Positions 28,609 to 58,960 of a DNA stretch of 64,000 nt are shown one piece after another. The position numbers were made by a program, and so were the translations under genes. Under the pieces are notes generated by a model that was not told the DNA's origin, did no database searches, and saw nothing but the letters and a program-made list of their open reading frames with translations. This DNA is from Paramacrobiotus metropolitanus (Eukaryota > Tardigrada > Eutardigrada > Parachela > Macrobiotidae). The DNA is taken from assembly GCF_019649055.1 (NCBI RefSeq), contig NW_026570247.1:806001-870000 (forward strand), read 5' to 3'. Position 1 is the stretch's first letter; each line of letters begins with the position of its first letter.

Positions 28609-28612
28609 CGTA
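28609..28612. repeat. Target-site duplication, left copy (CGTA)
   Basis: CGTA directly precedes the TGTCAG start of the 5' LTR. The same four bases follow the 3' LTR at 49957-49960. A 4-bp duplication fits a Ty3/gypsy-type integrase. Confidence 0.9.
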
Positions 28613-29051
28613 TGTCAGAGGCCCACGACTGCGCCTGGTGCGTACGGCCCACCATGGACGTACTTGCACTCATGCTTGCCGTTATCGCCTCTCTCGCTGT
28701 ACGTACGTGTGCTGCTGCACTGCACTCATATCCGCTGAAGCGGATATGCGCGGCGCACACACTGAGCATACTTGCTCTCTCGTCCCTCTCTCGCAGTATG
28801 ACTCAGCGTTCATACGCTCGCGTTGGATTGAGTCCAGTCTGCGCATCATCACACAGCTGATGGCACACACCACGTGCTTGCCGCCAGTTACTTCTTTCAC
28901 GCCTTGACAGACGCTCAAGAACCCACTTAGCATCACTTGCTATTAGCCATCAGTGCTTTGTTCTTGCTTTCCCTGCTATTACGCAGCATTGTTCCCACTT
29001 TATTTGTACAATAAAGCATCACTCGTGATCTCCTCGTGCTTGTCTGTTACA
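28613..29051 (+). repeat. 5' LTR (439 bp)
   Basis: Starts TGTCAGAGGCCCACGACTGC and ends CTTGTCTGTTACA. Compared with the 3' LTR I find two differences, both transitions (in GATTGAGTCC and CCAGTTACTT). AATAAA at 29010-29015 can serve as the poly(A) signal. A perfect 10-bp hairpin with a GA loop lies at 28727-28748. The small ORFs within it occur identically in the other LTR and overlap on both strands, so I do not regard them as genes. Confidence 0.97.
28727..28748 (+). promoter_or_regulatory. LTR hairpin with GA loop
   Basis: CATATCCGCT (28727-28736), GA, AGCGGATATG (28739-28748): a perfect 10-bp stem. Repeated in the 3' LTR at the matching position. It shares its CT-GA-AG apex with two hairpins in the leader. 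Confidence 0.7.
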
Positions 29052-29069
29052 TGGTAGCAGCATCTTACG
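29052..29069 (+). promoter_or_regulatory. Primer-binding site
   Basis: TGGTAGCAGCATC begins immediately after the LTR. TGGTAGCAG is the complement of a tRNA 3' end ...CTGCTACCA, as in initiator Met tRNA; the bases after it diverge, so another tRNA such as a Leu type is possible. Confidence 0.8.
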
Positions 29070-29155
29070 GTTTTCGATCTTTCGGAATCTTTGAGGAGAC
29101 GGTGAAGGCTCAATTTACGGAGAACTCGTGAGGAACCTGAAAGTCACTGTCAGAT

Positions 29156-29173
29156 AGATTGCTGAAGCAATCT
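29156..29173 (+). promoter_or_regulatory. Leader hairpin 1
   Basis: AGATTGCTGAAGCAATCT: perfect 8-bp stem with GA loop, followed by CTGCCCTG. Confidence 0.6.
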
Positions 29174-29226
29174 CTGCCCTGACTTTGATCAGACTGATTG
29201 CATCGTCTTACAGCTGAGGAAAACGA

Positions 29227-29244
29227 GGATCACTGAAGTGATTC
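29227..29244 (+). promoter_or_regulatory. Leader hairpin 2
   Basis: GGATCACTGAAGTGATTC: 8-bp stem (one G-T pair) with GA loop, followed by TTGCCCAG. It has the same apex and similar 3' flank as hairpin 1 but a different stem sequence. Confidence 0.6.
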
Positions 29245-29986
29245 TTGCCCAGCTGGTGAGCACAGTTTCTTGGTCTCTTCCACATTGAAGAGCATCCCAA
29301 CAGCACGGACTTTTCCCTTCCCAACTGACGGATCAGACTCGAACGAGAGTCTGCAGCGCGATAGGATTAATCCAATTATACGGGGACCTTCGCTTTGAAC
29401 AGCGACCCGCAACTTTACTAGCGGATTTCAGCACGGAAACGACGGATTTCCGACCTCGGACGGAGGAAATCGAGCGGAACCGACACCGACACCGACACTG
29501 GTAAAGTCACGGTTGTAGGTCGATTTCAGCCGAAACTAGGTCGGCTTTTCACTTTTTAGCGGTAGAAAACTATTTCTAACCGTAGATTTAAACTTTTGAA
29601 CGGTTAAAAAGTAATTTCTGACGGAGAAACCGACTCGGAATTCTGCTTTTGGTCGAGAACCGACCTGCTAGGTCAACGAACCTGTCTAGACAGATAGACA
29701 AAGGCTAACCGGCAACAGGTCGGAAATTTTCTCAGTTTTGATTTCTAACGGTGTTTCGACCACCAGAAAATTTTCTTAACTAATAAAACTAATTTCTAAC
29801 GGTTAAAAACTTAAAAATCCGACTAGATAAACTTTCTAGCCGACCAAAAATAATTTGTTTTTCTCGCGGGGAATAGCGCGAAAATTCTCGAACTTCCTTG
29901 TGACGTCATAACGACCGCTTATCAGTACTTTAGAGACAGCCAATCAGCGTGCAGGGGAAAGTTCCCATAGCTTAACATAGGCGTGA

Positions 29987-30562
29987 TTCATCGTTTTTTG
30001 TAAACACGTGCAAGAGATGCTCGACCAAGGAGTCATCGAACCGTCATCGGCAGCATGGAGCTTCCCCGTCGTCTTAGCCAGGAAACGGAACGGAGACGGC
30101 ACGGTAGGAACACGCTTCTGCATCAACTATATCAAGTTGAATGCCGTCACAAAGAAGAACGACTACCCACTACCGAACCCGGACGAGCTACTGGACCGAT
30201 GTGCCGGAATGGAATACTACGGCAAGGTAGACTGTCAGTCCGGCTTTTGGCAAATTCCCATGGATGAACAGTCCAAAGACTACACGACCTTCGTAACACC
30301 CGAAGGCATGTGGCGATTTAACCGTATGCCGTTTGGAGTCTGCAACGGACCCGCAACTTTCCAAAGGCATATGGATAAGATCACAGCATCAGCCCGGAAG
30401 AAGGGTGTGTTCGCCTACATTGACGACATCATCTTCTTCGGTAAAACTTTCGAAGACTTCCTCGAGGCTTTCCGAGCGACTCTCTTGAATGCCTCCGCGA
30501 TGCTGGATTTACGGTCAAACCCTCCAAATGTGAGATCGGAACGGACAGACTGCTGTTCCTAG
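29987..30562 (+). CDS. pol: Reverse transcriptase, N-terminally truncated, frameshifted
   Basis: The frame opens at 29987; the first ATG is at 30017. It enters the RT fold partway, at the MLDQGVIEPSSAAWSFPVVL segment. It then shows RFCINYIKLNAVT, YGKVDCQSGFWQIPM, MPFGVCNGPATFQRHM and the catalytic YIDDI. The fingers segment that normally precedes this point and any protease are missing upstream, and the sequence before about 30,003 has a different character. Downstream homology leaves this frame near 30,490 and resumes one frame over in the 30,607 ORF, so a one-base indel splits the RT. Acts in reverse transcription of the element RNA. This copy is unlikely to make a working enzyme without recoding. 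Confidence 0.9.
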   Translation, partial: FIVFCKHVQEMLDQGVIEPSSAAWSFPVVLARKRNGDGTVGTRFCINYIKLNAVTKKNDYPLPNPDELLDRCAGMEYYGKVDCQSGFWQIPMDEQSKDYTTFVTPEGMWRFNRMPFGVCNGPATFQRHMDKITASARKKGVFAYIDDIIFFGKTFEDFLEAFRATLLNASAMLDLRSNPPNVRSERTDCCS

Positions 30563-31560
30563 GACACGTCCTTAGCAAGAACGGAGTCCAGACCGACGAT
30601 GAGAAAGTGGCCTGTATTGCAGAACAAAGCTGCCCGAGAACCGAACGGCAACTCAGGTCGTTCCTCGGATTGGCCAACTACTACCGGAAATTCATCCGAG
30701 GATACGCTCAGAAGACATCGAAAATGTACGAGCTCCTACGGAAGGACAAAAACATCAAGCTCGATTGGACGGAAGCCCACACGGCTGAGTTCAACGACAT
30801 CAAGAAGGCGCTAACAGAAGCACCGGTACTGGCGAAGTTCGACCCGACTAAGAAGACCGTCATCGAATGTGACGCAAGCGGAGCCGGACTTGGCGCGGTG
30901 ATCTCACAAGATGATCATCCAATCGCCTACGCCAGCCGAGTCCTACGCCGACCGGAACTCAACTACGGAGTCACCGAATGGGAATGTTTGGCCGTGGTAT
31001 GGGCGGTGCAGAAATTCAAGCACTTCATCGACCACGGACTATTCACCGTACGAACGGATCACCGAGCATTGCAGAATCTGCTCCGATGCGAGTCGAACCG
31101 ACCTGGCATCAACCCTCGACTAACGAGATGGGCACTGGCTTTACAAGGACGGGACATAACCATCGAGTATAAGCCGGGAGTTTTCTGCGACAATGCGGAC
31201 GCCCTGTCGAGATGGCCACTCGAACGTAGTGACGACAAAGATCCACACGAAGAGTTGGACCAAGTCCTCAACTTCGAGGACTTTAAGGACAAAATCAAGG
31301 TCTGTACAATACGGACTCTTAGACGTCTGAAGGCAAATGCTTCAAAGAAAAGGAAGAAGGATCTAAAGGAACCACCGAAAATCCCTCTTCCACCGGTTCT
31401 CCCCGGATGCAATGTCATAACCGACTGGCATGACTTGAGTACCACAGAGGTCCGAGTCATAAACATCCCAGCACCGGAGACACCGGAACAACACGACGAG
31501 TTGGAAGTCGAAGACCACCTCAACAACGGAACGGAGGATGACCGACGTAAAATCATTTGA
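30490..31560 (+). CDS. pol: RT thumb/connection and RNase H
   Basis: Continuation of the polymerase in another frame; the annotated open part is from 30607. It carries RSFLGLANYYRKFIRGYA (RT thumb), then the tether and an RNase H domain with the expected Asp/Glu/Asp positions: ECDASGAGLGAVI, YGVTEWECLAVVWAV and RTDHRALQNLL. YKPGVFCDNADALSRWP marks its end. About 100 further residues form a basic, Pro-rich linker rather than a clear integrase HHCC start. It ends at a TGA overlapping the integrase ORF, one frame away, by 23 bases. Confidence 0.88.
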   Translation, partial: CLRDAGFTVKPSKCEIGTDRLLFLGHVLSKNGVQTDDEKVACIAEQSCPRTERQLRSFLGLANYYRKFIRGYAQKTSKMYELLRKDKNIKLDWTEAHTAEFNDIKKALTEAPVLAKFDPTKKTVIECDASGAGLGAVISQDDHPIAYASRVLRRPELNYGVTEWECLAVVWAVQKFKHFIDHGLFTVRTDHRALQNLLRCESNRPGINPRLTRWALALQGRDITIEYKPGVFCDNADALSRWPLERSDDKDPHEELDQVLNFEDFKDKIKVCTIRTLRRLKANASKKRKKDLKEPPKIPLPPVLPGCNVITDWHDLSTTEVRVINIPAPETPEQHDELEVEDHLNNGTEDDRRKII

Positions 31561-33253
31561 GAAATGCCGACAGTGCATCATGGCGAATAAACAACGATGT
31601 CCACCACCGGGTAAACTCCAAAAGACGGAAGTCGGTGAAGCTTGGTATCGCATCTATGCGGACTTCAAAGGTCCTCTTCCTCGGACGGAGACGAAGGGAT
31701 ACCAGTACATCGCAGTGGTAACCGACCAGCTGACGAAGTTCACCGTAGCCCGGGCAACAAAGACGAACACCGCGAGGGAATTCGAACGGTTTTTCGTCAA
31801 GGATGTCCTTTTGAAGTACGGAATGCCGACCTTCATCCACTCAGACAGAGGGACTCACTTTACAGCGAAAACGTTCGTTAAGGTCGCACGGATTTTCGGC
31901 ATCCAACACACACTTGGAACTGCCCACCATCCGGAAGGACAAGGACAAGTCGAACGGCAAATGCAAACGATATGGGACGGAATAAGGAAGTTCTGCGATG
32001 TAAAAGACGGACACCGATGGCACAGAGCCTTGGATTACGTCGTCTGCGGAATGAACTGAGCCGTCCATGCCGCGACTAAATTTTCACCGTTTTATATGAT
32101 GTATGGTCGAGAAATGACCATGCCACAGGACATTGTGGCCGGAACGAATACACCGGAAACCTTCACGGATAAGGAACACTACATCCGACGGATAAAAGAA
32201 CGACTTCAACGCTCGCACGAGATTGCTCGCATCAACATTGATGAAGCATTCGAACGGAATGCCGAGCACTATAACAAGAAGAAGTCGAATCCGACCTTCA
32301 AACCGCGGGACAAGGTAACGGTGGAATTTCCGACCAAGGACCCAACTCGGAAGGAACGCTACGATGGAGTTTGGACGGTCATCAACTATGTGGGCCCAAA
32401 TAACTTACTCCTTCGATGCGAAGACGGACGTGAAGATACGGTAGCCGTCGACCGAATAAAACATTGCCGAGTCGAGACAAGTCGACCAGCAACTCGGTCA
32501 ACTGGCCCGGTAGCCGACCCGACAGAAAGGGAAGCTACTCGGAAGCCGGAGAAGAAATCAAGAGAAACCGTCGAAAAACCTTCGGATCCGAACAACGAAA
32601 CGGATAAAACCGAACCGACGGCGAAGAAGAAACGAGGTCGACCTCGGAAGAAACCACCGACCGACTTCGAGACACCTGCACTGAAGGAACTTCAGAAGCA
32701 AGATGTGATAGCTGCTGAACCAGCACCGACCTCGGAAGAAGTCGCTGGGGACAAAGCTCAGCCGACCACCGAGCAACCGAAGAAGTCGGATGATAAGTCG
32801 GAAACGCCGGTCCAGCCAGCCAACCAATCAACGGAAGAACCGAAGCCAGCGACAAAGCCAGCTCGGAAGAAGAGGACGGTAAAGCAAACCGACTCGTCGG
32901 CACCGACCACAGAGGTCGTCGTAGCCGACTCGGCAGCCCAACCGACCAAGCCAAAGCGCAAGTATACTAAACGGAAGGTCGACTTACCGGACACATCGGC
33001 GCCGACTACCGAAGTCGTAGCAGCCAACCAGGCAGTCGAACCGACTAAGCCGAAACGGAAGTATGGGACAGCTAAGAAACCAAAGCTGACAGCACAACAG
33101 ATGCTGGAGGAAACTGAAGTCGCTGAAGACGAAGCCCATAAGGAAATCCTCGAACGAATATCCGAAGGACGGGCGGACTCGGAGAAACCAGTCAAAATAA
33201 CAAAACAGAAGACACCCAAAACAGCAGTCACAACAGCACGGACTCAGTCATAG
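31538..33253 (+). CDS. pol: Integrase with GPY/F module and AT-hook tail
   Basis: ATG 31538. A CxxC pair (KCRQC) remains from the zinc domain, but its His pair is not seen. The DDE core follows: YADFKGPLP, then HSDRGTHFTAKTF, then HHPEGQGQVERQ with the catalytic Glu. A single in-frame TGA at 32057-32059 lies just before the conserved AVHAATKFSPFYMMYGRE segment; sense reading resumes at once. A GPY/F-type module (RYDGVWTVINYVGPNNLLL) ends the integrase proper. The remaining 250 residues are Lys/Pro/Thr-rich, with a canonical AT-hook (KKRGRPRKKP) and two repeats of an APTTEVV...PTKPKRKY unit. These could tether the integration complex to DNA or chromatin. Ends at TAG 33251-33253. Confidence 0.9.
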
Positions 33254-33400
33254 GGCCATAGGTGTAAAACTTAGAATAAGTTTTAGGTAGCTTAACAGTA
33301 GCTAGGTATAGATGGACCTTTGGTGTCGAAATGGAATCTCTTCAGTTGACCGGAACACCTTCAGTTGAATACACGGGAGTTGGTAGAATTCTAACGCGCC

Positions 33401-33420
33401 GTATTTCCTTTCCTTAACAG
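33401..33420 (+). promoter_or_regulatory. Splice acceptor 1 (structural ORF)
   Basis: A pyrimidine tract GTATTTCCTTTCCTTAACAG ends nine bases before ATG 33430. A CTAAC branch-like word lies just upstream (about 33,391). Start context is CAACAATG. This is what an acceptor for a spliced subgenomic RNA should look like. Confidence 0.6.
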
Positions 33421-33429
33421 CAAGCAACA

Positions 33430-33585
33430 ATGTCAGGTCGTCACCGACACGACCCACCTTCCAGCGGATCGAACAGCGACGCAACGGCGGCGGATCGAAC
33501 CGATCCCCGTCTTACCCGACTCATCGCTCGACATCGCGATCGGATAATTCGCGGTCGGCCACACAGACGCCTTTACCGCAGGTAG
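33430..33585 (+). CDS. Structural polyprotein: N-terminal leader ORF
   Basis: 51 residues from the ATG that follows splice acceptor 1. Strongly basic (many Arg and His: MSGRHRHDPPSSGSNSD at the start, RDRIIRGRPHRRLYRR at the end), as expected for an RNA-binding N-terminus. It stops at TAG 33583-33585. Sense-like sequence continues in the next frame, so a small indel or recoding is likely. Confidence 0.45.
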   Translation: MSGRHRHDPPSSGSNSDATAADRTDPRLTRLIARHRDRIIRGRPHRRLYRR

Positions 33586-33614
33586 ATAATCCTAGCGCTA
33601 ACTTAACAGCTAAT

Positions 33615-33995
33615 GTGTTAGCAGGTCTTACGGTCGGGCCCCAACGAGGAGCCATACCGCCACAGATTTTGCCACCGAACACAGCAGTCGATAACACAGG
33701 CTGTCTGTGGAACCTCGGAACTGGAACGAGTCAGACGACTCCGGTAACGGCAGCAGACCTACATGGTCAAATGCCACCGTATCAGTGGTCGGTACCGACT
33801 ACAATAGTCGGACCAACCAGCTCGGCATCAACAACGATGACCGGAGCAGCTTACCCGACACAGACAATGGTGATAAGGAATGGCGAACACGCCTGCAACT
33901 TTTTAAATGGTGCCCACAATGGCGCCAGGAATGGCCACCACGGCTGGTCCGATCTATACGACGCCTACAATGGCGCCGACCAGCTTCCCATATAG
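33615..33995 (+). CDS. Structural polyprotein: Pro/Thr-rich segment
   Basis: 126-residue open frame rich in Pro, Thr and Gly with no fold recognised. It overlaps by about 90 bases the next ORF, which is one frame on and of the same composition. It is probably part of one disordered region split by a frameshift. Contains an ACAAT-loop hairpin at 33795-33811. Confidence 0.4.
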   Translation: MLAGLTVGPQRGAIPPQILPPNTAVDNTGCLWNLGTGTSQTTPVTAADLHGQMPPYQWSVPTTIVGPTSSASTTMTGAAYPTQTMVIRNGEHACNFLNGAHNGARNGHHGWSDLYDAYNGADQLPI

Positions 33996-35079
33996 CCCAC
34001 CGGCGATGCGGTTTGCATCAATCCAGCCAACGTCTGGAATGCCACCCCCACAAATCCCAACAATTAGCATGGTCAATCCGGATGGCACAGTTTCGCCACC
34101 AAGGCCGATATTGCTTACGCCACCGACTTCGCCGACCCATCTCAGACCACCCGGACAACAGAGTTCCTGGATGGATCCGAATGCGACAACCCACTTACTG
34201 AATCGGCTTAACCAGCACAGAAGCCAGGTCGGAGGACAGAGCCAACAAGTGCCTGTCTCGACGGCGACCACACAGGTCGTTACGTCGATGCCTCCACCTT
34301 ACGTGGTTGTCCAGGAAATCAATACGAATGGGAGAACGGACGAAGAACTGCGCCAACAAGCAAAACTGGCTCGTGCTCACATAGACACGATTACCCAGGC
34401 GTTGACGCAGACTTCTCAGACGAATCCGGCCCATGCCTCGTATAGAGCGAACCTGTTGGCCGAATTGACGTACCAAGAGAATCGTCTGAACGACACCAAC
34501 AGGACGCTCTATGAGAGGGAACAACAATCCCTCCGACTCTGCCAGCAGGCGGCAGCCCGACACGTCGCTCAACGACTGGGAGATCCTGACCCCGGACCGC
34601 CGCAGATAACCACACAGGTTGTCGCACCGACGACCCAGCCGACTCCGTCGACTTCGGCAGGCCAACAAGTGCCTGGCCGAACACCGTCGTTGGAGATCGG
34701 AAAACTCCGTGCCGAGAAGGAGGAGGCCATGAACGAGGCAGTAAAACTCAGAATGAGTTATTCAAAAATTCCCCACACAGCGGAGAACTACACTGCCGAG
34801 GTGGGAAGGATACGCCGAGAGGAACAACAACGTACCGATCAGGCAGCCCACTTAGAAAGAAGGATAAGAGCTCAGGAACAAAACTTGCGCTCATCCGGAA
34901 TCTCGGCACCGACCACGCAGGCGGTGATCGATGAAGAAATCCGACTAGCTCGGCTGGATGCTTTACGGCAAAAGCGCAACGAATACCTCCACGAGATCGA
35001 TGTGGTGAAGCAACGCCTGCCCACTCTCGATCCGACTGAGGAATATCATTCCGAACCGTCAAGGGCAATCTCGACTTGA
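33907..35079 (+). CDS. Structural polyprotein: coiled-coil modules B1-B3
   Basis: 390 residues. The first 130 are disordered and Pro-rich. Then come three copies of a roughly 65-residue helical hairpin, starting near 34,340, 34,690 and 34,933. Their shared plan is two charged coiled-coil helices joined by a short turn with Pro, Thr or Asp and an aromatic (for example TNPAHASYRANLLAEL; IPHTAENYTAEVGRI). Linkers carry the repeated TTQVV/TTQAV motif. The third copy runs off the frame: the ORF ends in TGATG at 35077-35081, where the next ORF starts. No database family comes to mind. I infer a scaffold or capsid-layer role. Confidence 0.6.
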   Translation: MVPTMAPGMATTAGPIYTTPTMAPTSFPYSPPAMRFASIQPTSGMPPPQIPTISMVNPDGTVSPPRPILLTPPTSPTHLRPPGQQSSWMDPNATTHLLNRLNQHRSQVGGQSQQVPVSTATTQVVTSMPPPYVVVQEINTNGRTDEELRQQAKLARAHIDTITQALTQTSQTNPAHASYRANLLAELTYQENRLNDTNRTLYEREQQSLRLCQQAAARHVAQRLGDPDPGPPQITTQVVAPTTQPTPSTSAGQQVPGRTPSLEIGKLRAEKEEAMNEAVKLRMSYSKIPHTAENYTAEVGRIRREEQQRTDQAAHLERRIRAQEQNLRSSGISAPTTQAVIDEEIRLARLDALRQKRNEYLHEIDVVKQRLPTLDPTEEYHSEPSRAIST

Positions 35080-37373
35080 TGGACCATTGGACGAAGAAGC
35101 TGATAGAAAAGGAGAACGAAATCCGAGCACTCCAGCCGACGACAACCCAACCAGTGGTTGTCCCGACGAGCCAACCCCAACCGATGATAACGGTCAACGT
35201 AGGACAGGGGTTACTACCAATTCAAATTCCGGCTATCCAAGTGAATCCAATACACCAAGTCCCACAAGGACCACCTGTATTGCCGCTCCCAACATTGCAG
35301 GAGCTACGGGCACTTCTACGGATGACTGGAATAGTCGTAGAACGAATGGGCGCGGTTATGGAAGATACACAAGCTGGAACCCCTGAATGGCAAGCCTTCG
35401 AACACGACGGGAAAGTCATTCGTGACTTCATGGCAGGACTTCAGTCATACTTGATTACCGGACTGCCAGCAACTCCGGCGGAACTGACCGCCATTCGCAA
35501 CCGAATGCAGAATATCCAAAACCGAGCCGACAAGCGTCATCACCTTACCCAAAACTTGTAAGCAGCGGAACGGAGGTCGTCAGCCGTACCAATGCCCTTA
35601 ATGGCAGACGTACGAGCCGCCATCGAGGTCGGAAACCGAATCCTTGACGGCATAAGGATGACGCAAGGTGGAGACTTACCAGCTATCGCCAACAGAGCTC
35701 AGATAGTGAACGACCTCCACCGAAGCTTGCGCATCGCCCGTCAATTACTCAAACAACGAGAGGGTATAACGACAGACGACCAGGCCGTCCGACTGAACAT
35801 GCATTACCGAAGGATTCAACAGATAATCCAGAGCCAGACGGGTGGAACCGAACAACAGGTTCCCCAGCTCCGGTATCATGCTATGGCACTTCAGATTGGA
35901 CAGGATGACCAGACGACAGAAGTCTGGAAAACCATCCTCGACGGCAAAGAAGCCCTTCAAGCCATCTATGGACGAATAGCCAACGGGATTCAGGATCTCA
36001 CTAACGCAGATCCAGTTCGGAAAATTAACGATCTCATAGCTCACATAGGGCTAACGGAAGATCTTACTCGGTACGGTTTGCCCACCACAGAGGTGGACAA
36101 ACACCGACTCCGAACAGCCATGGATCAGGTGAAGACGGCTATCCTAGCGGAAAAACCTCCGACCTCACAAACGGATAACGTCCAACTGACGACGTTACAA
36201 CCGGGAGCCGTTGTGACCTCACCGATATCATCGCCCCCACCGCCGACCACACAGGTCGACAGTGGAGCACAACCGCCGAATACACAAGTGTTCGACCCGG
36301 CTCGACTTCGGACGCTCGAAACACTGAAAAGGAAGCGGGATAAAGTGATCAATCAGTCGAACGCGATTAAGGAACGGATGCAGAACCTCCCAACAAGTGG
36401 AGCCGACCATCCTCGTGAATTCCAAGCCCTGCTCAACCAGTATAAGCAGGCGTTCGATCGCCAAGCGGAGCTCGACAAAGTAATTCACGTCGAGAGACAA
36501 ATGATCCAGCTGACCGCAACACCACGGTCTCCACAGACGATGCGGGCACTAGCAACGCCAGCCACGAACGGTGAGAAGACAATCACCGACGCCAGGAGAG
36601 CCCTACGAGAGGCAAAGCAAATCCTGGAGAAGATATGCGAACGCTCGCAACAAGGTTTGGAACGCTATGCCTTACAGAAGATCGAAGACTTCACGGCTTA
36701 CATAGAGCTCGTCGAAAGTCTAATCCAAAGCGGGACGCCACAGACCATGGCACATCAACGGATACTAGAGCCAGGAGTTGCGCTACTAGCCAAGCTCAAC
36801 GAGGAACATCGAAGCTTTTTACCCGCATCATCGACGATGACCACACAGGCCGTAACGTCGAACACCCCACCCGACAGGACGATCCTCTACGCCAAAGGCG
36901 CCATCAAAGAGGCGGAACGCGCACTGAGACGAATCAGGCGACGCGCTGCGAGGGGAATCGAACCGAATGTACAGAAAATAGCATCCGAGTTCGACACTCA
37001 CATACAACTAGTGAGAAACCTGATACAACCAGGTACAGTCGAACCGGGAGCTCATTTTCAACTCGTGATGGACGCCATCAACCGGCTACAGGACTACAGT
37101 CGAAATCAAGGCCGACTACCCGACTCCGACACGGAGACTTCGGATGCATTAACGTCGACCTCATCGGCGGCGGAGATGCACTCGGCAATGCGGAAAAGCC
37201 GCAGGGAAAAGATGGCTTCCATAATCGGCGATGGATGGAATCTACTGAACCACCTCCAGAGATCCTTTGTCAACGACACCAACCGACGCCGAAACGCTCA
37301 AGGTAGCGAGACAGAAAATGAACGACTTGACGGCCTACCTGAAGAGGGCGGACCATTTAATCGTCAAGGATGA
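35079..37373 (+). CDS. Structural polyprotein: helical modules A1-A6, B4
   Basis: ATG 35079 overlaps the previous stop. One in-frame TAA at 35559-35561 interrupts an otherwise continuous frame. It contains five to six copies of a roughly 75-residue all-helical module with the plan helix - Gly turn - helix (I..LI..LI.xG) - P/T turn - helix, at about 35,325, 35,610, 35,919, 36,574, 36,880 and 37,180. Examples of the middle helix are FTAYIELVESLIQSGTPQT and FDTHIQLVRNLIQPGT. A B-type coiled coil lies at about 36,300-36,530. The last module continues in the next frame from about 37,290. No enzymatic motif. Confidence 0.6.
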
Positions 37374-37536
37374 ACCGACCGAGGTAGAAGAACGACAACT
37401 CAGAGCGGTAGTCGAGCGAATCACAGAGATCCTCGATGCGGAACCCGCATACACTATACGGATTCCGTCGCCGTCGTCACCTCGTCGAGCAGCACCGACT
37501 ACGACAGCGGAGCAGCACCGACTACGACAGCGGTGA
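37267..37536 (+). CDS. Structural polyprotein: end of module A6
   Basis: Short frame overlapping the previous ORF by about 100 bases. The peptide KMNDLTAYLKRADHLIVKDE matches the middle helix of the A module, so true coding switches into this frame near 37,290. Ends in a second TGATG stop-start overlap at 37534-37538. Confidence 0.5.
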   Translation: MSTTPTDAETLKVARQKMNDLTAYLKRADHLIVKDEPTEVEERQLRAVVERITEILDAEPAYTIRIPSPSSPRRAAPTTTAEQHRLRQR

Positions 37537-40500: not shown

Positions 40501-43181
40501 CGTCGCGCGAATTCCATGACGACCCAGCTTTACAACACGTAAAGGACCTGACGAGGTCGGAACAGGATGCCTGCATCGACATGGCATATCCGGAGGACAG
40601 GGAACTCTGGCACTCGCTGAGAATCCGACGTGCCAGCATAGTTGGAAACACCACGGAAGCTCGGCGCGACCATGACCGACTTACCGAGAAGATGGCCGAC
40701 GTTATGAAACGAATGGGAGAACATTACCGAACGGAAAGGAGCCGACCTAAAGCCCTACAAGCGGCTATACCGACTCCACGTAAAACCACCGCCCCGGAAC
40801 CCAAGTCGACCAAAAAGACGGTACAACAACCCGTCGTTAAGATGAAAGTTCCCCCTCCGACCAGACAACCTTCCGTTCAGATCGACGACGATCAGGACAC
40901 CAAGGTCATCAACTCGGCCAACTCCGCGAAATCCCACAAGGATAAACGGAAGGCCAAGAAGGAAGCAGCGAAACAGCCTGCCAAACCGCAACCGACGGAA
41001 ACCCAGAAGAAACCCGTAAAGTCGGAGGCCAAAGAACCGACCAAACCGAAGTCGGATTCAACGGTCAAGACGCCTAAGCCTAACCCGGCTAAACGACACA
41101 AGTCGTCCGACGACCTGGATATTTCGGATGCCGGCCCACAAAGGACCGAGCAGAAGGAGAAGGCACAGGAACCGCACGACAAGGAGGCGGTAGAACGAAA
41201 ATTCCAAGAAGTCATGCAGCGAGCAGGCACAAAGCCAGCTAAGACTTCAGGAGGTCGGTTACGAAACCCACCGAAACCGCCGACTCCGACCGAACAACCG
41301 CAGCCTTCCACATCAAAGCAACAGTCGGATGTGGAATCCGATCAGGTCTCGGACACTGAAGAAAAAGACTCGATCTCCGACCACGGAGACGGCGATCCTT
41401 ACGAAGGATATAATGGTGACCTGAAGGAAATGTTCGACCACGGAGCGGTCACCGATGAATCACAGTGGCCAGCCCCGGACGATGTACGCGAACGCCTCCC
41501 GGACGAACAGCCGGACGATCCGGTCGATACATTATTCCGCAAAGTCCGAGTACACGTCGAAGTCACCCGTAGCATTCGGAACGCCAAGGAAAATGCTAAG
41601 GATATTTACGAGTCCCTAGTACATGGCTTGTCGAATAACATACAGGTCGAAGGCGAAACTGGAAAATGGCTGACGCATCAACTTATGATGCAGATCGTCG
41701 CCTGGACCCTTGACTATGGATTAGCAGTCGCCGTTCACCGACAATGGGGACGGATGGCTGAACTGATCCAACCTGACCTCATCAAAGCACTCAAAAGTGC
41801 AGCGGCAAGGAACGCGGACGATACACCGACCAGAATCGCACGGTGAATCGGATACATCCGAAACCCTCGCGGATCGACTTTGGTCCAAATCGCCCGTGTA
41901 TATAACGTAATGTACATGGACAAGAAAGGCAATATCGACGATATTATAAGCCACATAGAGGGTCGGACTGAAGAACTGGTCGCGGCACATACCCTTCAGA
42001 CGACCAACGCGGAACGCGACGTACCGGTAAGGTACACCGTGCCCAACTTCATACCGGAACAACATCGGCGTGAATTCAATCTCCGGATGTCTTACGTCAA
42101 CACGGACAAGCCTCCGGCTGGCACGGAACCGACCGAAGAGTACAGCGATTCCAACGAACAACCGTCGGATGATGCAGCCACCTTGCTGCATATAGCTCGT
42201 ACGGCTGGACAGTCATCACAAAGACGAGTCCAAGCTCTCAACCGACCTCGAGCACCGCATGAACCGACAACATATGTCGGCACAGCATCGGCTCCGGCGG
42301 GACGAGCAAGTACCGCTAAACCAACTCGGAGCGCGAAAGGACGGTTTATACCGAAGGACGTTCAATCACTTCCACCGTCCTCGCCTATGGAAATTTCGCC
42401 GGAACCGGAGGACTCGACACAACAGAAGGCAAAGTCCAAGTCGACCAGAACGAAGTCGACTAAGCCGGCCAAGAAGAAGGAACCGAAGTCATCCGAGCTG
42501 ATCTCGTCATCCGAAGAAGAAACTGAAAACGACGATGATGACGACGACGAGGATTTTCGAACACCTGGAAATGGCTCACCTAGGGACGACGATGATGATG
42601 ACGATGAAAACGGCAAACCCCCACCACCGTCGAGCTCGGCACCTCAACAGCAGGCCGAACCGGAGATACCGGATAAACAGCCGGAAGAAAAGGATAGCGG
42701 CGACAAAGCCGACGAATCCAAAGGCAATGAAGACGACGGTGGAGTATACGTCCCACGTCAGTACGGTAAACGAGTACCGCTGACCCCAGATACCGACGAG
42801 CGACCACTCCTGGTGGAATGGACCGAGGACCAAATGGAGGTGCTACCGGACGATATTCCTCCACTCACCAACGTCAGGCTGAAGTACACAGGCATTAAGT
42901 CGGCTTCGAAACCGAAACCGAGCGTCTCGGAATACGACGCCGGATGGATGTACACATTCGCCGCCCTGAAGGCCTTGGCTACACGTGGACCGAAATTCGC
43001 CACACCAAGAATCGCCTTCAAACTCCTCCAACATTGGAAGGTAGATGAGACGGGCGATTGGCGACAACTTAGTCAGAACAACGTACGACACTACTGCGAC
43101 CTAGGATACCATGCTGGGAAGCTGATACGTACATACACCAGCGGAAAGCGGATGGATGTACTACGAGTTCCCACCGGCTAA
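37536..43181 (+). CDS. Structural polyprotein: long frame with three TGA stops
   Basis: From ATG 37536 one frame stays open for 5.6 kb apart from TGA at 38304-38306, 39594-39596 and 41844-41846, ending at TAA 43179-43181. It contains modules A7 (about 37,578), B5 (37,935), B6 (38,185, crossing the first TGA), A8 (38,620) and A9 (39,025). A very long Lys/Pro/Thr/Ser-rich low-complexity stretch follows (39.3-41.3 kb), then a helical domain (41.5-42.1 kb) and an acidic cluster with runs of Asp and Glu (about 42,510-42,612). At the end is a folded domain of about 140 residues with WRQLSQNNVRHYCDLGYHAG, vaguely reminiscent of a winged helix. Each TGA could derive from CGA, the favoured Arg codon here. 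Confidence 0.6.
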
Positions 43182-43623
43182 GAAAGACCCGGCTCCTTCA
43201 ACATATGAAGGATGGATACACGCCATCGATGCGTGCATGGAAATGTCCTGGCATCCAGAGGGACTCACCCGCGGAGAAATACTCCACCAACTCACAGCGC
43301 GGTTTGAGTTCCAGTGGACAACAGCAGAACCGCAGTTGGTCGACCCAAAATACAAGGCCCAACCGGACACAATCGCCGGACGGAAGAAATACTCCCTGGA
43401 AGATGAATTGGAATTCGTCTTGTCGAAGGCACTCTATCAACAACGATTTGCCACAAACACCGACAAAGTCCAGGGTGGTCAACGATTTATTGCTTTAAAC
43501 CCATCAACCCACCGATACGGACATTTACCGAAGGAACGACCGACCTCGGCACAACCGACCGAGTTGGCTGATTCGCACCAAGCAAATCGGCTCGAGTCGC
43601 CAGAAGTACCCACACGGGAATGA
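43156..43623 (+). CDS. Structural polyprotein: second winged-helix-like domain
   Basis: 155 residues, overlapping the previous ORF by 26 bases in another frame. The folded part (YEGWIHAIDACMEMSWHPEG, LTRGEILHQLTARFEFQW, LEDELEFVLSKALYQQRF, GGQRFIALNP) has the helix-helix-helix-strand order expected of a winged helix. It aligns loosely with the end of the preceding frame, so the two may be a tandem pair. A donor-like GAA|GTACCC at about 43,605 would splice in frame to acceptor 2. Confidence 0.5.
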   Translation: MYYEFPPAKKDPAPSTYEGWIHAIDACMEMSWHPEGLTRGEILHQLTARFEFQWTTAEPQLVDPKYKAQPDTIAGRKKYSLEDELEFVLSKALYQQRFATNTDKVQGGQRFIALNPSTHRYGHLPKERPTSAQPTELADSHQANRLESPEVPTRE

Positions 43624-43821
43624 GGAAACGCAGAACGCGTCGGGAGAGAGGCATAATCGACCTCCTCCCATTGACACCACATAGGCGTCATCGACCAACA
43701 GAAGTCGACTTACCTCATTAGACGACCACAAAGGCGTCTGGGACCAGCTCGAGAACCGACCTGGCCCGACCGTAGTAATCATAGGATATAACTCACAGGG
43801 CGCAACCGAGAAACGGTTTGC

Positions 43822-43839
43822 TGACTTTTGTTTTGACAG
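43822..43839 (+). promoter_or_regulatory. Splice acceptor 2
   Basis: TGACTTTTGTTTTGACAG with a CTGAC branch-like word directly before the T-rich tract. It opens the 719-residue frame, which has no good ATG near its beginning and therefore seems to need an upstream exon. Confidence 0.55.
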
Positions 43840-46020
43840 ACTCGGACGGAAGCCTACACGGTGGACTGCCGACAGTGTAGGGATAACGCGACGCGGGACA
43901 ACAACAGATTGCCATGCGCGGAATGCATCGTCTCCTTCACCAACGAACGGGTCACCGGCACCGGAGCACAAATGCGAGCTCAGGCAGCGGCACTTTACAT
44001 TAATGTTGTCGCCGGAAACCTGAGTGCATACCGGTACATAGCTCGGAACGAAACCTTGGTTGACCAGCTACAGGCTCACGAACAGGACAACCTATCGGTC
44101 ATTCAACGACAACGAATTCAGGACCCAGGTTGGGTAGGAACCGTACCACCAGTCCTAACAGATAGGCTGTGGGTGTACCGACAGGGGCAAGACTTACATC
44201 GGCAATTGGAGGACCAGAAGCGAATCAAAGAGGTCGACGACAGAATCGCCTCGATGAGAGTCCATCCACCACCGACCAGCTACGAACCGGAAATAAAAAT
44301 TCGGTTACCGGCACCCACACAGGGTCGCTCAGACACCGAACAACTGGTCCATGACATACGCGACGTCTTCGTCGGAGATCCACACCGACCAATGACGGGC
44401 GCCTCGTTAACGAAGATGATGAATATGCCGGACGGAACTCAACAGCCAGTTACTTTTACACCGGCAACTCGAGAACAGTTGATGGCAATCCCACACAGGG
44501 CAACGCCAGTGGTCACACAGGCCCGTCCAACTGTTTCTCAGCAGATTCCCCAACAAGGAACTCGGACTCAACCGACAGCCCAACAGCAGCAGCGCCGACC
44601 GAGTAAGAACCTTGCGGAACACGACCTCCGACATAGGATTGGCCCGGTTGACCTTCGAGACAGAATCGAAGAGCAACGAGCCGTCATTCGACAAGCCGGA
44701 AAAGAGCCGACCAGGGCTCCACCAGGAAAACGAACCGGTTCTGGAGAAACGGAAATCGGACTTACGGTCGACTTAACAAGTAAGTCGAAACGTAACTTCG
44801 TCCCCCCCGAACAGCAGCCGGAAGCCCCACAAGCGGAACCGGCAGCTGAACTCCAAGCTGAACCGGCAGCTCAACAGGAGCAGATGGACGTCGATGTAGC
44901 TGATCAGATGGCACAACTACCACAAGTGGAAGTGCCGATCCGAGAAGACCCTCGTTATGACCGAGCTCGACAACAAGGAATCGAGGTCGTCATGCTACAC
45001 CCTACCGAACGGACGAACCACATCATGAATGTTATGAATTACGAGGAACGGAACCGACCACAAATCTGGCGAATGGTAGAAAACCTCCGTCAATTCCTCG
45101 TCCGATCCGGATATCGGACGCTGTTCGAACAACATCAGTGGCAACCCGACTTCAACATGAACGCGCACACAGCGCCGAATGTTGAACATCCGTATACCAG
45201 ATCGAATGCGTTACCGTCGATGACCGACCCGGTCTTGCTGAATGTACCACTGTACAGCCCGGACGGAATACGTGCGAGCCAACTAGGAGCTCGGGAATAC
45301 TCCCACGACGAGTGGGAGAGTATTGCCCAGTTCGTCATCACGGACGCCCACCCAGCCTTCGTAATTACCGCGGCTCGGGCAGCACTGGACTTAACCCAGT
45401 ACCTTCCAGAAGGGGAAGTCGACATGGCCCAAGACGGAATTACGGCATTTCTGCGATTCATCTTCGCAGCCCGGCTTGGCAACTACTTTTGCCATTACAC
45501 CTTGTACGGACTGTACCAGAACGAAATGATACCAGCGGCAGTGGAAACCCTCGTAGCCCAACTCGGCACACCGATGAGAAGTGTTATCCTAGCCGTCTGG
45601 ATGCGCGATTTGCTGTACACCCACGAACGGTATGCGACAAAATATGCCTTTCGTGAGGATCACATAGATCCCAGCGACGACGCGACCAGATTTATCAGCT
45701 GGTACCGACAAAAGAAGACTCTGCCTAGCGGATTTAACTCGTCGCCCTACGAACCTTGGATGTCGGACGACATTGCACCCGGCGCACGACCGTATGCGCT
45801 TCGGCTCCGAAAACAGGCGGCCAAGGAATCGAGAAAGGGCAGAGCGGAGCGTTCAGGCCAGGAAACCGATGAGACTGATGAGATGTCTCAGCGGGGTGGC
45901 TCGGCGACCTGCAAACCAAAGGACCCAACCATCCGACCGCATAACCGACCTGGCCCGGACGACGATGAAGAAGAAGATTACTTCGGCGGCGATAAACCCG
46001 TCGAAGTCCCACTCAGTTAA
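43840..46020 (+). CDS. Zn-motif/all-alpha structural protein of the element
   Basis: One uninterrupted frame of about 726 residues after acceptor 2 (first ATG about 43,972). It starts with two CxxC pairs (VDCRQC...LPCAECI), likely zinc-binding. A Gln/Pro/Thr-rich middle carries AEPAAELQAEPAAQQEQ-type repeats. From about 44,940 a compact helical domain of roughly 280 residues follows (YEERNRPQIWRMVENLRQFL, DEWESIAQFVITDAHPAFVI, AFLRFIFAARLGNYFCHYTL, VILAVWMRDLLYTHERYATK). The tail is basic, then acidic (DDDEEEDYFGG). There is no signal peptide or membrane segment, so it is not an envelope. The size and helical content would fit a capsid (Gag-like) protein, but I cannot show homology. It is the only large ORF of the element without a lesion. 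Confidence 0.65.
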   Translation, partial: TRTEAYTVDCRQCRDNATRDNNRLPCAECIVSFTNERVTGTGAQMRAQAAALYINVVAGNLSAYRYIARNETLVDQLQAHEQDNLSVIQRQRIQDPGWVGTVPPVLTDRLWVYRQGQDLHRQLEDQKRIKEVDDRIASMRVHPPPTSYEPEIKIRLPAPTQGRSDTEQLVHDIRDVFVGDPHRPMTGASLTKMMNMPDGTQQPVTFTPATREQLMAIPHRATPVVTQARPTVSQQIPQQGTRTQPTAQQQQRRPSKNLAEHDLRHRIGPVDLRDRIEEQRAVIRQAGKEPTRAPPGKRTGSGETEIGLTVDLTSKSKRNFVPPEQQPEAPQAEPAAELQAEPAAQQEQMDVDVADQMAQLPQVEVPIREDPRYDRARQQGIEVVMLHPTERTNHIMNVMNYEERNRPQIWRMVENLRQFLVRSGYRTLFEQHQWQPDFNMNAHTAPNVEHPYTRSNALPSMTDPVLLNVPLYSPDGIRASQLGAREYSHDEWESIAQFVITDAHPAFVITAARAALDLTQYLPEGEVDMAQDGITAFLRFIFAARLGNYFCHYTLYGLYQNEMIPAAVETLVAQLGTPMRSVILAVWMRDLLYTHERYATKYAFREDHIDPSDDATRFISWYRQKKTLPSGFNSSPYEPWMSDDIAPGARPYALRLRKQAAKESRKGRAERSGQETDETDEMSQRGGSATCKPKDPTIRPHNRPGPDDDEEEDYFGGDKPVEVPLS

Positions 46021-46172
46021 GGTCGGGTTCCCACACTGGAACTCGATCCCCCATTTGGAATAACTACGGGGACTTAACGCCGAGAAACGGCATGGTCGAG
46101 AACCGACCCGACTGAGAAACAGTCTAGCTGAGAAATAGAACCGTCGAGAAACGACTTAGGAATGGACACTCT

Positions 46173-46191
46173 TCTTTAGTTCTTTTCACAG
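46173..46191 (+). promoter_or_regulatory. Splice acceptor 3
   Basis: CTTTAGTTCTTTTCACAG ends at 46191, 13 bases before ATG 46205. Confidence 0.55.
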
Positions 46192-46204
46192 AAACTGACT
46201 AACC

Positions 46205-46585
46205 ATGTACGCGGTGGACGTCAACAACGACTTTGCCAGAATGCTGAAGTCAGCCGGATTCTTCGGTTTGACCCGGATACAAGTGGTTAGACCTGACAAG
46301 CCGGCCGTTTCCACCGCTCCGGTACGTCTTCCGAGGAATCCCCTGGACAGAACTGGGCAAACCGACCCCAGTTCCCCAGTACGGCAGGAACAGATCGTAA
46401 CCACATCTGCTAACATAGCAGATCAACCACGTTCGGCGACCATCGGAGCCAACAGAAGCCCCAACCCGCGCTACATGGAGCCGACCGAGAGTTACATGGT
46501 ACAGATCATGCCGGTAACCAAGGTCAGCTGTGAAGATTACTCCGGCCAACCGACTCCGGAGCATACACTGAGAGGATTACGCTAG
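46205..46585 (+). CDS. Small ORF after acceptor 3
   Basis: 126 residues, starting MYAVDVNNDFARMLKSAGFF. The first 30 residues could be helical; the rest is Pro/Thr/Arg-rich. No family recognised. It is followed after one base by another ATG-started ORF. Confidence 0.5.
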   Translation: MYAVDVNNDFARMLKSAGFFGLTRIQVVRPDKPAVSTAPVRLPRNPLDRTGQTDPSSPVRQEQIVTTSANIADQPRSATIGANRSPNPRYMEPTESYMVQIMPVTKVSCEDYSGQPTPEHTLRGLR

Positions 46586-46586
46586 C

Positions 46587-46802
46587 ATGTTGCGAAATGC
46601 GTCACTGCGCGCGTTTCACAACATGCTTGCCGAGCACCCGTTGCCAACTACGGAACCGGGTAGCCGAGCAACCTTCACCAGTGTAAACAGCGGAAATCCC
46701 TCGGCCGAGCCGCCAACAGCGCAGGAAGACTCGGATTTGACTAGGTACTGGAGCCGACCACAAAGGTCGACTTCGTACTTTACCTACAACTCGGAAACAT
46801 AA
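46587..46802 (+). CDS. Small ORF, possibly coupled to the previous one
   Basis: 71 residues starting MLRNASLRAFHNMLAEHPLP, with ATG one base after the preceding TAG. Ser/Thr-rich C-terminal half. It overlaps an ACAAA-loop hairpin (46755-46769). Unrecognised. Confidence 0.35.
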   Translation: MLRNASLRAFHNMLAEHPLPTTEPGSRATFTSVNSGNPSAEPPTAQEDSDLTRYWSRPQRSTSYFTYNSET

Positions 46803-49517
46803 CGGATACTGCCGCACCAGCCGACCACAAAGGTCGGTTGTGCAAGCCGATCACAAAGATCGGTTATGGAAACCCAGATTGTTCGACCTGCAACGACGCA
46901 GATCGTTAAACCACGATTCGCTACCTTTAGTCGACCACACAGGTCGACTGAGTAGATGGTAGCCGACCAACGAGAAGTCGACCATGGACGGGAGCTGGCA
47001 GTAGTAACGTGGCAACTTAACCGGATTCTCCGTTTGAATCCAGACTTACAGGCTCTGTACCTGGAGATCAACCGCAGTCTCCCCCGGAGGATATCGGGTA
47101 AACCAGCCGATTCACCGGTGACCACGACTACGCGCGTCGCGAACGCGCTGCCATTCCCTGAAGAGGAACAGCGACGGTGATTTGGATACTGGTGTACCAA
47201 CGACTGCGCCGCGACCTGCTTCCCCATGTCTTTAATGGAACATCCTAGGCGGACCGTGTTAGAATACGCGATCTGCACCCCTTGAACGAACCTCGCTGAC
47301 AAGGACCATGCGGCCGCAACACCAGTGGCAGCATTGCCTTTGTCAGCGGCAAAGAAAATTCCCCTCGTGGACGTGAGTCGTCTACCCCCAACAGAAGCGG
47401 CTAGGCGTCACAGGTTCGCGACAAAACAGAATGGAAGAAACGGATCTGACGACCTCAGGGACTTGCATGTGCATGAAGTTTAAAACCAAAGAGCTCGCCT
47501 TGGCAACCGGGGCCACAAAGACCCTTGACGTTGTAAGCGAGCAGCATTGCATGATGGAACGCCAGTCACTCGGCCAACAGATGCCAAGGAGAACTACCTC
47601 ACAGGACTCGGCAACCCAGAGGTACGACGGCCAACAGTAGCTTGGATCCGACCCAGAGTTCACGCTAGTTCACACAGAACGAACGGAGTTGTGCTGCTGA
47701 ACATCCTTCTGCCAGCCGGAGCTGACCGAAGGATGTCCAAACAACGGAAACCCGGTCAACTGTACCCGAATGCACGGAACTCCTAAGAGTGATCCGACTT
47801 GGAGCCTATGTCAGGGATGTAGCCACAGAAGAAACGGAGTTAGACTGCCGAATGTCTTTCAGCCAGTCCGAACTGACCGAAAGACATCCTGACAATGGAG
47901 ACCCGGTCAACTGTAGCCGGACGCACAGAGCTCATCGGATCACGACAACCCGACAGGTGCCGACTAGCCCCACATGGGCGTCAAGGCGCAAGTCGTCTGG
48001 ACAGACTCGGAACAGAAGTCGGACATCAGCAGATGGAGGTCGGAAGTATGCGACAACAGGTCGGCAAATCAACCCGAAGTAGCAAATCGACCTCCCACTG
48101 GAAGAACTTAGCTTTTCGTCGGATAAAACACAAAGTTTTTCCGACCTGAGGAAGTCGGAAAATAGCCGACCTCCCACTGGACACGGATATCCGACCTCAA
48201 GCCGAGGTCGGAAGTCAACGCACAGAAGACGGAAGGATATGACAACAAGTCGGCAAAGACATTTAGAAGTCAAGAACCGACCTTCTAACGGAAAAATCCG
48301 ACCTTCGAACGGATGAAGACTTAGTTCATCCGACCTTCCGAAGTCGACCGTAACCGACCACATGTTGGAAGTCGGCGACATAGTCAACATGACGGAAGAA
48401 GAACGACAACTGTCTGCAGTGGACGAATTCGACTTGAAGGAACTTGTTTAGCCCCACATGGGCATGTTATTGCAGGTTAACCCTAGTCGACCACTGATGG
48501 ATAGGATAACCGACCTCGACAGAAGGCCGGATAACAACGCAACAGATCGGATGGAAGCCGACCGAATACTTCCATCGACGAAATTCGTGAATTCCGACCG
48601 GACCTTCGAGCCAGTTCGACTCGGATTACTCCAAACCAGGCTCGTGGTAGCAGATTAAACGGTTGTAACCGACCACTTTTTGAACGGAACGGCTGTACAT
48701 GACGACCACACAGGCCGCATGACTTACACACAGCTTTTCCGACCTGGACTTTCACAATTCGGAACATAGCCGAATTTTGCCCGCCACCGGTCGACATACC
48801 GGTAGGCCGACCTTGGTCAAACCGACCTCGGTCCTATTCCCCATTCAGAGAGGATGCCTCGGCATTCGCACAAGCAACAGTGCCTCTCTATCCCTGACGG
48901 ACGGATACGAGTCGGAAGTAAGTGTTTAACCGTGCTTATCCGACCTCGGTGAATTTAACCGGTTACGACGGGTAACCCGGGAACCGATGCCCCGGACCCA
49001 ACTTACCGGATGAAAGGGGACAGGAGACCCCGTGGACGTCATCCTAGTCGGAATAGGACCCCCGGACAGATTTTTGCATTTTTTTTAGCATTTCTCCTAA
49101 CAAACGGAATTGTATTTTTCTAGTTCGATCTCTTTAACAGATCTGTTTTGTAACCCCTTTTGCTCACTGGAATTGTGATTAAACTTTATTTCATACTTTC
49201 TTTCGCGCTGTATACAACTTTCAATACATTTTTCTTTCACATTGTTCTCCGCTGCCAACAGAAGCAAGAAGCCAGCCAACAGAAGCATCACCGGTCCAAC
49301 GAAACGCCCAAGCGGCTTCCGGATTTCTCGGCCGTGAGTGGTTTCCACTCATGGGTCTGGAAGTGAAGAAGGGACGGTCGACCAGACACCGGACTCCCAC
49401 TGCTAGAGGACGCGTACCAGCGACCCCACATTGGGTCCGACTGGAGAGTTGTGCGGTACTGGTGCGGTACCGAGTCGGAGCATCCTTCGCAGGAGCTCGG
49501 ATTCCCGCCCAGAGGCA
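46803..49517 (+). other. Structured tail of the element, mostly untranslated
   Basis: Only short ORFs (best 46956-47180, 74 residues, helical; 47431-47640). It is packed with CCGACCT/AGGTCGG words and small perfect hairpins, for example 46821-46837, 46847-46863 and 46929-46949. A 151-bp near-tandem duplication (about 47,641-47,940) contains covarying hairpins. Acceptor-like TCTCTTTAACAG at 49139 and CTCCGCTGCCAACAG at about 49260 are present. A purine-rich stretch GGAAGTGAAGAAGGGACGG lies near 49,358, some 140 bases short of the 3' LTR, and no good polypurine tract abuts the LTR. Confidence 0.55.
47641..47940 (+). repeat. 151-bp duplication with covarying hairpins
   Basis: Two diverged copies offset by 151 bp. 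Each holds a 9-bp stem with an 18-nt loop: 47701-47709/47728-47736 and 47852-47860/47879-47887. Both copies are preceded by GAACGGAGTT-like sequence and followed by ACCCGGTCAACTGTA. Three stem positions differ with both partners changed. Confidence 0.7.
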
Positions 49518-49956
49518 TGTCAGAGGCCCACGACTGCGCCTGGTGCGTACGGCCCACCATGGACGTACTTGCACTCATGCTTGCCGTTATCGCCTCTCTC
49601 GCTGTACGTACGTGTGCTGCTGCACTGCACTCATATCCGCTGAAGCGGATATGCGCGGCGCACACACTGAGCATACTTGCTCTCTCGTCCCTCTCTCGCA
49701 GTATGACTCAGCGTTCATACGCTCGCGTTGGATTGAATCCAGTCTGCGCATCATCACACAGCTGATGGCACACACCACGTGCTTGCCGCCAGTTGCTTCT
49801 TTCACGCCTTGACAGACGCTCAAGAACCCACTTAGCATCACTTGCTATTAGCCATCAGTGCTTTGTTCTTGCTTTCCCTGCTATTACGCAGCATTGTTCC
49901 CACTTTATTTGTACAATAAAGCATCACTCGTGATCTCCTCGTGCTTGTCTGTTACA
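49518..49956 (+). repeat. 3' LTR (439 bp)
   Basis: Same length as the 5' LTR, 437 of 439 positions identical by eye. AATAAA at 49915-49920. Followed by the right CGTA duplication. Confidence 0.97.
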
Positions 49957-49960
49957 CGTA
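49957..49960. repeat. Target-site duplication, right copy (CGTA)
   Basis: CGTA directly after the ACA end of the 3' LTR, matching 28609-28612. Confidence 0.9.
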
Positions 49961-58438: not shown

Positions 58439-58960
58439 ATATTTCTAAATATTTCTAAATATTTCTAAATATTTCTAAATATTTCTAAATATTTCTAAAT
58501 ATTTCTAAATATTTCTAAATATTTCTAAATATTTCTAAATATTTCTAAATATTTCTACATATTTCTACATATTTCTAAATATTTCTACATATTTCTAAAT
58601 ATTTCTAAATATTTCTAAATATTTCTAAATATTTCTACATATTTCTACATATTTCTACAAATTTCTACAAATTTCTACAAATTTCTAAATTTCTAAATAT
58701 TTCTAAATATTTCTAAATATTTCTAAATATTTCTAAATATTTCTAAATATTTCTAAATATTTCTAAATATTTCTACATATTTCTACATATTTCTACATAT
58801 TTCTACATATTTCTACAAATTTCTACAAATTTCTACAAATTTCTACAAATTTCTAAATATTTCTAAATATTTCTAAATATTTCTAAATATTTCTAAATAT
58901 TTCTAAACATTTCTAAACATTTCTAAACATTTCTGGATATTTCTGAATATTTCTACATAC
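58439..58960. repeat. 10-bp minisatellite (ATTTCTAAAT)n
   Basis: About 52 tandem copies of ATTTCTAAAT and its variants ATTTCTACAT, ATTTCTACAA and, at the end, ATTTCTAAAC. The variants lie in blocks rather than at random, and the block order AAAT, ACAT, ACAA occurs twice. Confidence 0.97.

Follow-up and report, generated by a model that had tools for sequence, protein, structure and literature searches.

A probable internally deleted copy of a roughly 30-kb Ty3/gypsy retrotransposon family with two conserved post-pol reading frames in the tardigrade Paramacrobiotus metropolitanus

The length of a retrotransposon is limited by transcription, by the processivity of reverse transcriptase (RT) and by packaging, as outlined in a section of a 2019 review (PMC6431247). 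Excerpts of the same review describe three kinds of very large element. Burro, of planarians, has an internal region of up to 25 kb and exceeds 30 kb in total with its long terminal repeats (LTRs); motifs of the gag, BIR, ankyrin, MATH and BCL2-like kinds occur in its ORF1 of 4,873 amino acids (aa), and gag and pol are separated by an env-like region. The Ogre elements of plants, which carry extra open reading frames (ORFs) of unknown function, owe their 16-25 kb chiefly to long LTRs of 1.9-6.5 kb that enclose an internal region of 11-13 kb, and the terminons of bdelloid rotifers are very large retroelements with extra ORFs whose RT is of the Penelope-like class (PMC6431247). Here we describe a 64,000-nucleotide stretch of the Paramacrobiotus metropolitanus genome (C27:806001-870000 in an assembly of 169.8 Mb; hereafter the window), in which an original prediction had placed a giant Ty3/gypsy LTR retrotransposon of 21,344 bp. 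The best overall explanation, which we hold to be highly probable, is that positions 28613-49956 hold a defective member, shortened by internal deletion, of a Ty3/gypsy family of elements measuring about 30 kb. The family resembles Burro as an animal Ty3/gypsy element of some 30 kb with very large coding capacity and extra domains, but it has 0.44-kb LTRs, an internal region of about 29 kb and its extra proteins after pol. It shares with Ogre the Ty3/gypsy affiliation and the additional ORFs, whereas its LTRs span only 432-440 bp (24 measured). Unlike the terminons, it has LTRs, an integrase and a Ty3-type pol. The curation section of a study on the repeats of two other tardigrades names no giant element (PMC11071193), and among open-licence papers, judged by titles and the opening lines of abstracts, we recognised no description of this one.

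The boundaries originally proposed for the window copy were borne out. Its two LTRs have TG..CA ends and agree at all but 2 of 439 positions, the insertion is bordered by CGTA at either end, and the 5' LTR is followed by the primer-binding-site-like TGGTAGCAG, which we take to be complementary to the 3' end of the initiator tRNA-Met (Table 1). An LTR search across the assembly had been suggested as a check. We estimated the size of the family from the junction of LTR and primer-binding site and that of tail and LTR, allowing at most one mismatch; these matched at 134 and 235 places genome-wide, with 2 and 0 matches for the respective patterns read backward. Exact matches on contigs C1-C113 among the matches listed (56 five-prime and 96 three-prime junctions) were then paired if they lay on the same strand and less than 60 kb apart. 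Of the resulting 32 LTR-to-LTR pairs, 20 measured 28.5-31.5 kb, eight were shorter and four longer. The predicted length of 21,344 bp therefore does not hold as the size of the element, which is larger. The LTR pairs on C7, C94 and C75, spaced 36.4, 37.0 and 43.3 kb, may be nested insertions or longer forms, and further short pairs were seen among the 40 best LTR matches on C133 (16.0 kb) and C205 (22.3 kb).

Five longer copies were read through, each pieced together from separate stretches, and all five have the same order of parts. Judged from these sequences, the full-length order is LTR, gag-like ORF, pol (protease, RT, RNase H and integrase), ORF3, ORF4, a 3.5-kb non-coding tail and LTR. 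In none of the five are all four ORFs open together. The LTRs of eight compared pairs are separated by Kimura two-parameter distances of 0 to 0.014 and are identical in two of the eight, so the insertions appear to be recent. Matching 4-bp target-site duplications flank seven of eight pairs tested, and the sequences show that the family moves through RNA and inserts with 4-bp duplications. A further LTR of the family, L020 (C1:539398-539836), is probably a solo LTR, because ACGC flanks it on both sides.

Relative to the five longer copies, the window copy lacks about 8.8-9.2 kb between window positions 30004 and 30002. The missing block comprises the gag-like ORF (1,567 aa in the C3 copy), the protease and the start of RT, so that what the original prediction took for a complete giant is a gag-less deletion derivative. 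The junction shows short microhomology and does not have GT-AG form, and splicing was accordingly rejected as the cause of the deletion. A second loss, of about 0.33 kb near 31,490-31,557, includes the integrase H2C2 domain. What remains of pol, together with ORF3, is scattered over several frames with stops, although the two LTRs are nearly identical; this fits a copy that was already defective when mobilised by others, or else errors of assembly.

In the C3 copy, Pfam recognises gag-asp_proteas, RVT_1, RNase H, H2C2 and rve, in that order. Among proteins of solved structure, Ty3 Gag-Pol comes closest to this pol (E 2e-82), and both have the order protease-RT-RNase H-integrase. The best protein matches of the tardigrade pol are Ty3/gypsy-type polyproteins. 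Yeast Ty3 itself is several times smaller and, to our knowledge, has no post-pol ORFs. The RT was placed in a tree, as had been proposed, using 34 rows from a set without named Ty3 clade references (RT region cut from 118 of 120 matches). Four P. metropolitanus rows formed a clade of their own, supported at 100/100 and set off by a stem 1.18 changes per column long; a further two rows were long and uncertain. The pol is of Ty3/gypsy type, in a separate, long-stemmed clade. The ORF upstream of it, of about 1.57 thousand aa, is labelled gag from its position. Its stop overlaps the start of pol as ATGA in all five copies, which suggests reinitiation or frameshifting. A sister family in the same RT clade, P0003, is represented by 28 scored copies (from 2,646 candidates; e.g. 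C57:701986-707043), many of which have a single frame spanning about 3,000 aa.

The long post-pol ORFs that had been predicted, at about 33.4-46.0 kb of the window, were confirmed. They are not nested transposons, a source of the extra length that was rejected earlier and is rejected here, since the block stands in the same place in all five longer copies. ORF3 encodes some 3,300 aa and is open over 3,227-3,405 aa at four places (C3, C69, C98 and C104). When 100-residue pieces of it were compared, imperfect repeats were detected (e.g. residues 1036-1099 against 1136-1199, E 3e-9); a BLAST of the whole protein against itself printed none. We call it helical on the strength of its composition and these repeats. 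ORF4, of about 730 aa, carries near its start the motif C-x2-C-x12-C-x2-C, in agreement with the zinc-motif protein foreseen. Of the 63 matches returned by a search with ORF4, in which 61 of 682 candidates were scored, 49 have no internal stop. Median ratios of non-synonymous to synonymous change were 0.20 for gag (five copies), 0.08 for the RT core, 0.19 for ORF3a and 0.11 for ORF3b (six copies each) and 0.11 for ORF4 (14 copies). The share of substitutions falling on third codon positions was 58-72% for gag, RT-IN, ORF3 and ORF4, as against 29% and 31% for the 5' untranslated region and the tail. Both ORF3 and ORF4 are therefore under purifying selection as coding sequence.

The description of these ORFs as about 13 kb of "structural" sequence fared less well. 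That word was a guess, and searches of Pfam and the PDB for known domains gave sub-threshold matches or none, the best being DUF7844 on one ORF3 piece from the window, with an E of 4e-4 and a score of 20.3 bits where 27 is required. No BIR, ankyrin, MATH or BCL2-like domain was found in Pfam scans of the C3 ORFs and of ORF3 and ORF4 of a diverged element on C50. Among 5.8 billion proteins, where about 8,000 candidates were scored per search so that distant kin may be missed, ORF3 and ORF4 had no kin outside the P. metropolitanus genome; each returned one match, both from P. metropolitanus. Viral contigs scanned with the annotated protein P0121, in which the leader is joined to ORF4, yielded 35 pattern matches and no relatives. 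The specially structured RNA tail that had been predicted was also rejected: over 200-nt segments, fold z-scores ran from +0.9 to -4.4 in the tail (18 segments) and from 0 to -4.5 at 31-45 kb (15 segments), with a mean of -1.7 in both, so that folding is not stronger in the tail than in coding sequence.

A second, diverged family carries the same module. Two long pieces of the C50 element's pol show 96-97% identity to P0002. Identity between P0002 and the C3 pol, in turn, is 83% for one piece and 68% for a second, and for the RT piece of P0002 it reaches 85% over 267 columns. Downstream of pol the C50 element has a similar leader, MSDRRRDPPSSGSNS...ATQTPIPQ followed by GT, then pieces of ORF3 with 31-44% identity to P0122 and an ORF4 that is 36% identical, with unchanged cysteine spacing. 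Elsewhere, relatives of ORF3 adjoin pol on C68, C58 and C280, and adjoin ORF4 on C160, C41 and C60. Since leader, donor, ORF3 and ORF4 recur in a diverged family, the ORF3/ORF4 module is older than these families.

The arrangement of ORF4 points to splicing. Its frame opens at TTTTGTTTTGACAG/ACTCGG (slash, exon boundary), and the cysteine motif precedes its first methionine. One locus, L037 on C176, matches window positions 32093-33581 and then 43837-47585, so that the 10,258 nt from donor to acceptor are gone, and has an open frame of 786 aa. In a search for sequences spanning this junction (40 of 184 candidates scored), six ran through it (C176, C99, C180, C152, C14 and C46) and 34 matched one exon only. 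Three are complete intron-less elements from LTR to LTR, of 20,014 (C99), 20,078 (C46) and 20,079 bp (C14), as expected of a 30.3-kb element that has lost 10.26 kb; on C176, a 5' LTR junction lies about 14.1 kb before the leader. Because the leader runs straight into ORF4 in six genomic copies, spliced RNA was reverse transcribed. The copies on C99, C180, C14 and C46 are 14-15 nt longer than C176 across the junction, and at least two events are therefore likely. In a tree of ORF4, C176 grouped with the unspliced C3 copy and P0121 with the unspliced C426, in opposite halves and at forks supported by 100/99; P0121 may be a spliced gene model rather than an intron-less copy. Taken together, these data indicate that reverse transcription of spliced RNA has probably occurred at least twice.

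These results are consistent with a model in which a first splice at acceptor 1 would produce a subgenomic mRNA carrying the leader. The leader would then either be read on into ORF3 or be spliced to ORF4, so that both proteins would share an N-terminus, namely the roughly 51 aa that the leader exon encodes. Removal of the 10,258-nt intron, which the genomic copies show for some of the RNA, joins the leader exon to ORF4 and drops ORF3; the latter could be supplied in trans, because 20-kb copies without ORF3 have also inserted. Our guess is that ORF3 and ORF4 are soluble accessory factors that act in particle assembly or in the handling of a 30-kb RNA. A more far-reaching version, which we find on balance doubtful, is that the post-pol module is new retroelement machinery: a helical scaffold of 3.3 thousand residues and a zinc protein, made from a common leader exon, would enable a Ty3-type particle to take up a 30-kb RNA and copy it, and the splice would also give a 20-kb genome that lacks the scaffold gene but can be packaged. 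The family, which has about 29 kb between its short LTRs, has inserted recently and keeps conserved orphan proteins, offers a natural system for the packing and copying of long RNA. The intron-less 20-kb copies are natural splicing and retrotransposition assays, and bear on whether ORF3 is needed in cis.

Three other explanations were weighed. The size of about 30 kb could be an artefact of assembly or reflect a chain of separate elements, and according to the part consulted of its description the assembly was built with Canu from nanopore reads with an N50 of about 17 kbp, below the length of the element (PMC11191345). We nevertheless regard this as extremely improbable, since the LTR pairs converge on one length, most of those tested have matching target-site duplications, and a single order of parts was found in every copy examined. 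A slight chance remains for the idea that the 20-kb copies represent one deletion that later spread: the four with 14-15 extra nucleotides may indeed be a single lineage. However, the join coincides precisely with a GT donor and an AG acceptor, C176 lacks the insertion and groups by its ORF4 with an unspliced copy, and P0121, although its genomic form is uncertain, groups with another unspliced copy from the opposite half of the tree. The reading of ORF3 and ORF4 as an envelope module, which would make the element an endogenous retrovirus able to exit the cell, draws on position and splicing, as env in errantiviruses and retroviruses lies after pol and is made by splicing; moreover, the ORF3 relative P0122 has a stretch with a mean hydropathy of 1.77 over 19 residues. 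In a simple hydropathy scan of the family itself, however, the highest 19-residue values were 1.09 and 1.27 for ORF3 and 1.23 for ORF4. Cysteines make up only 0.4-0.8% of the two proteins, the leader is rich in Ser and Arg with no signal peptide discernible by eye, and Pfam scans found no env domain. An envelope identity was rejected on the hydropathy values and the scarcity of cysteines, and we consider it very unlikely.

Several observations weigh against our preferred reading of a roughly 30-kb family with a spliced post-pol module. The pair on C104 has no matching target-site duplication. The 16.0-kb C133 copy, one of ten pairs among the best LTR matches, lacks ORF3 and ORF4; copies without the 33-47 kb block had been named in the original prediction as evidence against it, and one does exist, but it is a plain internal deletion that joins the equivalents of window positions 33728 and 48493, and splicing was rejected as its origin. 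No gag domain reached the Pfam cut-off, the best sub-threshold match being DUF4939 (E 0.17), and no domain backs any role for ORF3 or ORF4. The ORF4 acceptor is kept in the aligned loci except C81, which has GACTG and not GACAG. Splicing is read here from genomic copies, and no 5' donor was found for acceptor 1. The start of the leader has 35 exact matches, including C176, C14, C46, C99 and C180. Compared by eye, all of them recur among the 67 places that match the leader together with acceptor 1 at up to three mismatches, so that none of the 35 is a genomic copy without the first intron. Such copies would not be expected, because the RNA would have lost gag-pol and packaging parts.

Table 1. 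Parts of the retrotransposon copy in the window (window coordinates; slash, exon boundary)
Feature	Position	Strand	Remark
Target-site duplication CGTA, left	28609..28612	none	
5' LTR, 439 bp	28613..29051	+	
Primer-binding-site-like TGGTAGCAG	29052..29060	+	directly after 5' LTR
5' untranslated region	29061..30004	+	substitutions even across codon positions
Internal-deletion junction	30000..30005	none	8.8-9.2 kb gone relative to 5/5 longer copies; non-GT-AG
pol remnant	30005..33250	+	broken frames: RT from its middle, RNase H, integrase core, C-terminal tail
Splice acceptor 1, TTTCCTTTCCTTAACAG	33404..33420	+	predicted use
Leader exon	33421..33581	+	ATG at 33430; ends CCGCAG/GTAGAT; frame broken in window copy
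Intron, 10,258 nt	33582..43839	+	donor CAG/GTAGAT, acceptor TTTTGTTTTGACAG/; absent from six genomic copies
ORF3, helical polyprotein	33430..43623	+	several stops and frame changes in window copy
ORF4 exon, 726 aa, open frame	43840..46017	+	C-x2-C-x12-C-x2-C near start
3' tail	46021..49517	+	non-coding by codon-position test
3' LTR, 439 bp	49518..49956	+	
Target-site duplication CGTA, right	49957..49960	none	

Rfam gave one match on the window, outside the element: a eukaryotic small-subunit rRNA fragment on the minus strand at 6927-7070, which scores 54.2 bits against a cut-off of 50 and leaves a gap inside the model. A few hundred bases past the 3' LTR, at 50288-50465, lies an inverted repeat with 62-nt arms that are 98% complementary and 54 nt apart, perhaps the remnant of a small DNA transposon. 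It is followed by three tandem arrays: an AT-rich one at 51842-53411 with units of about 208 bp (alternatively read as 261 or 363 bp), some 52 copies of ATATTTCTAA with 95% matches at 58439-58959, and imperfect repeats of about 50 bp at 61351-62165.

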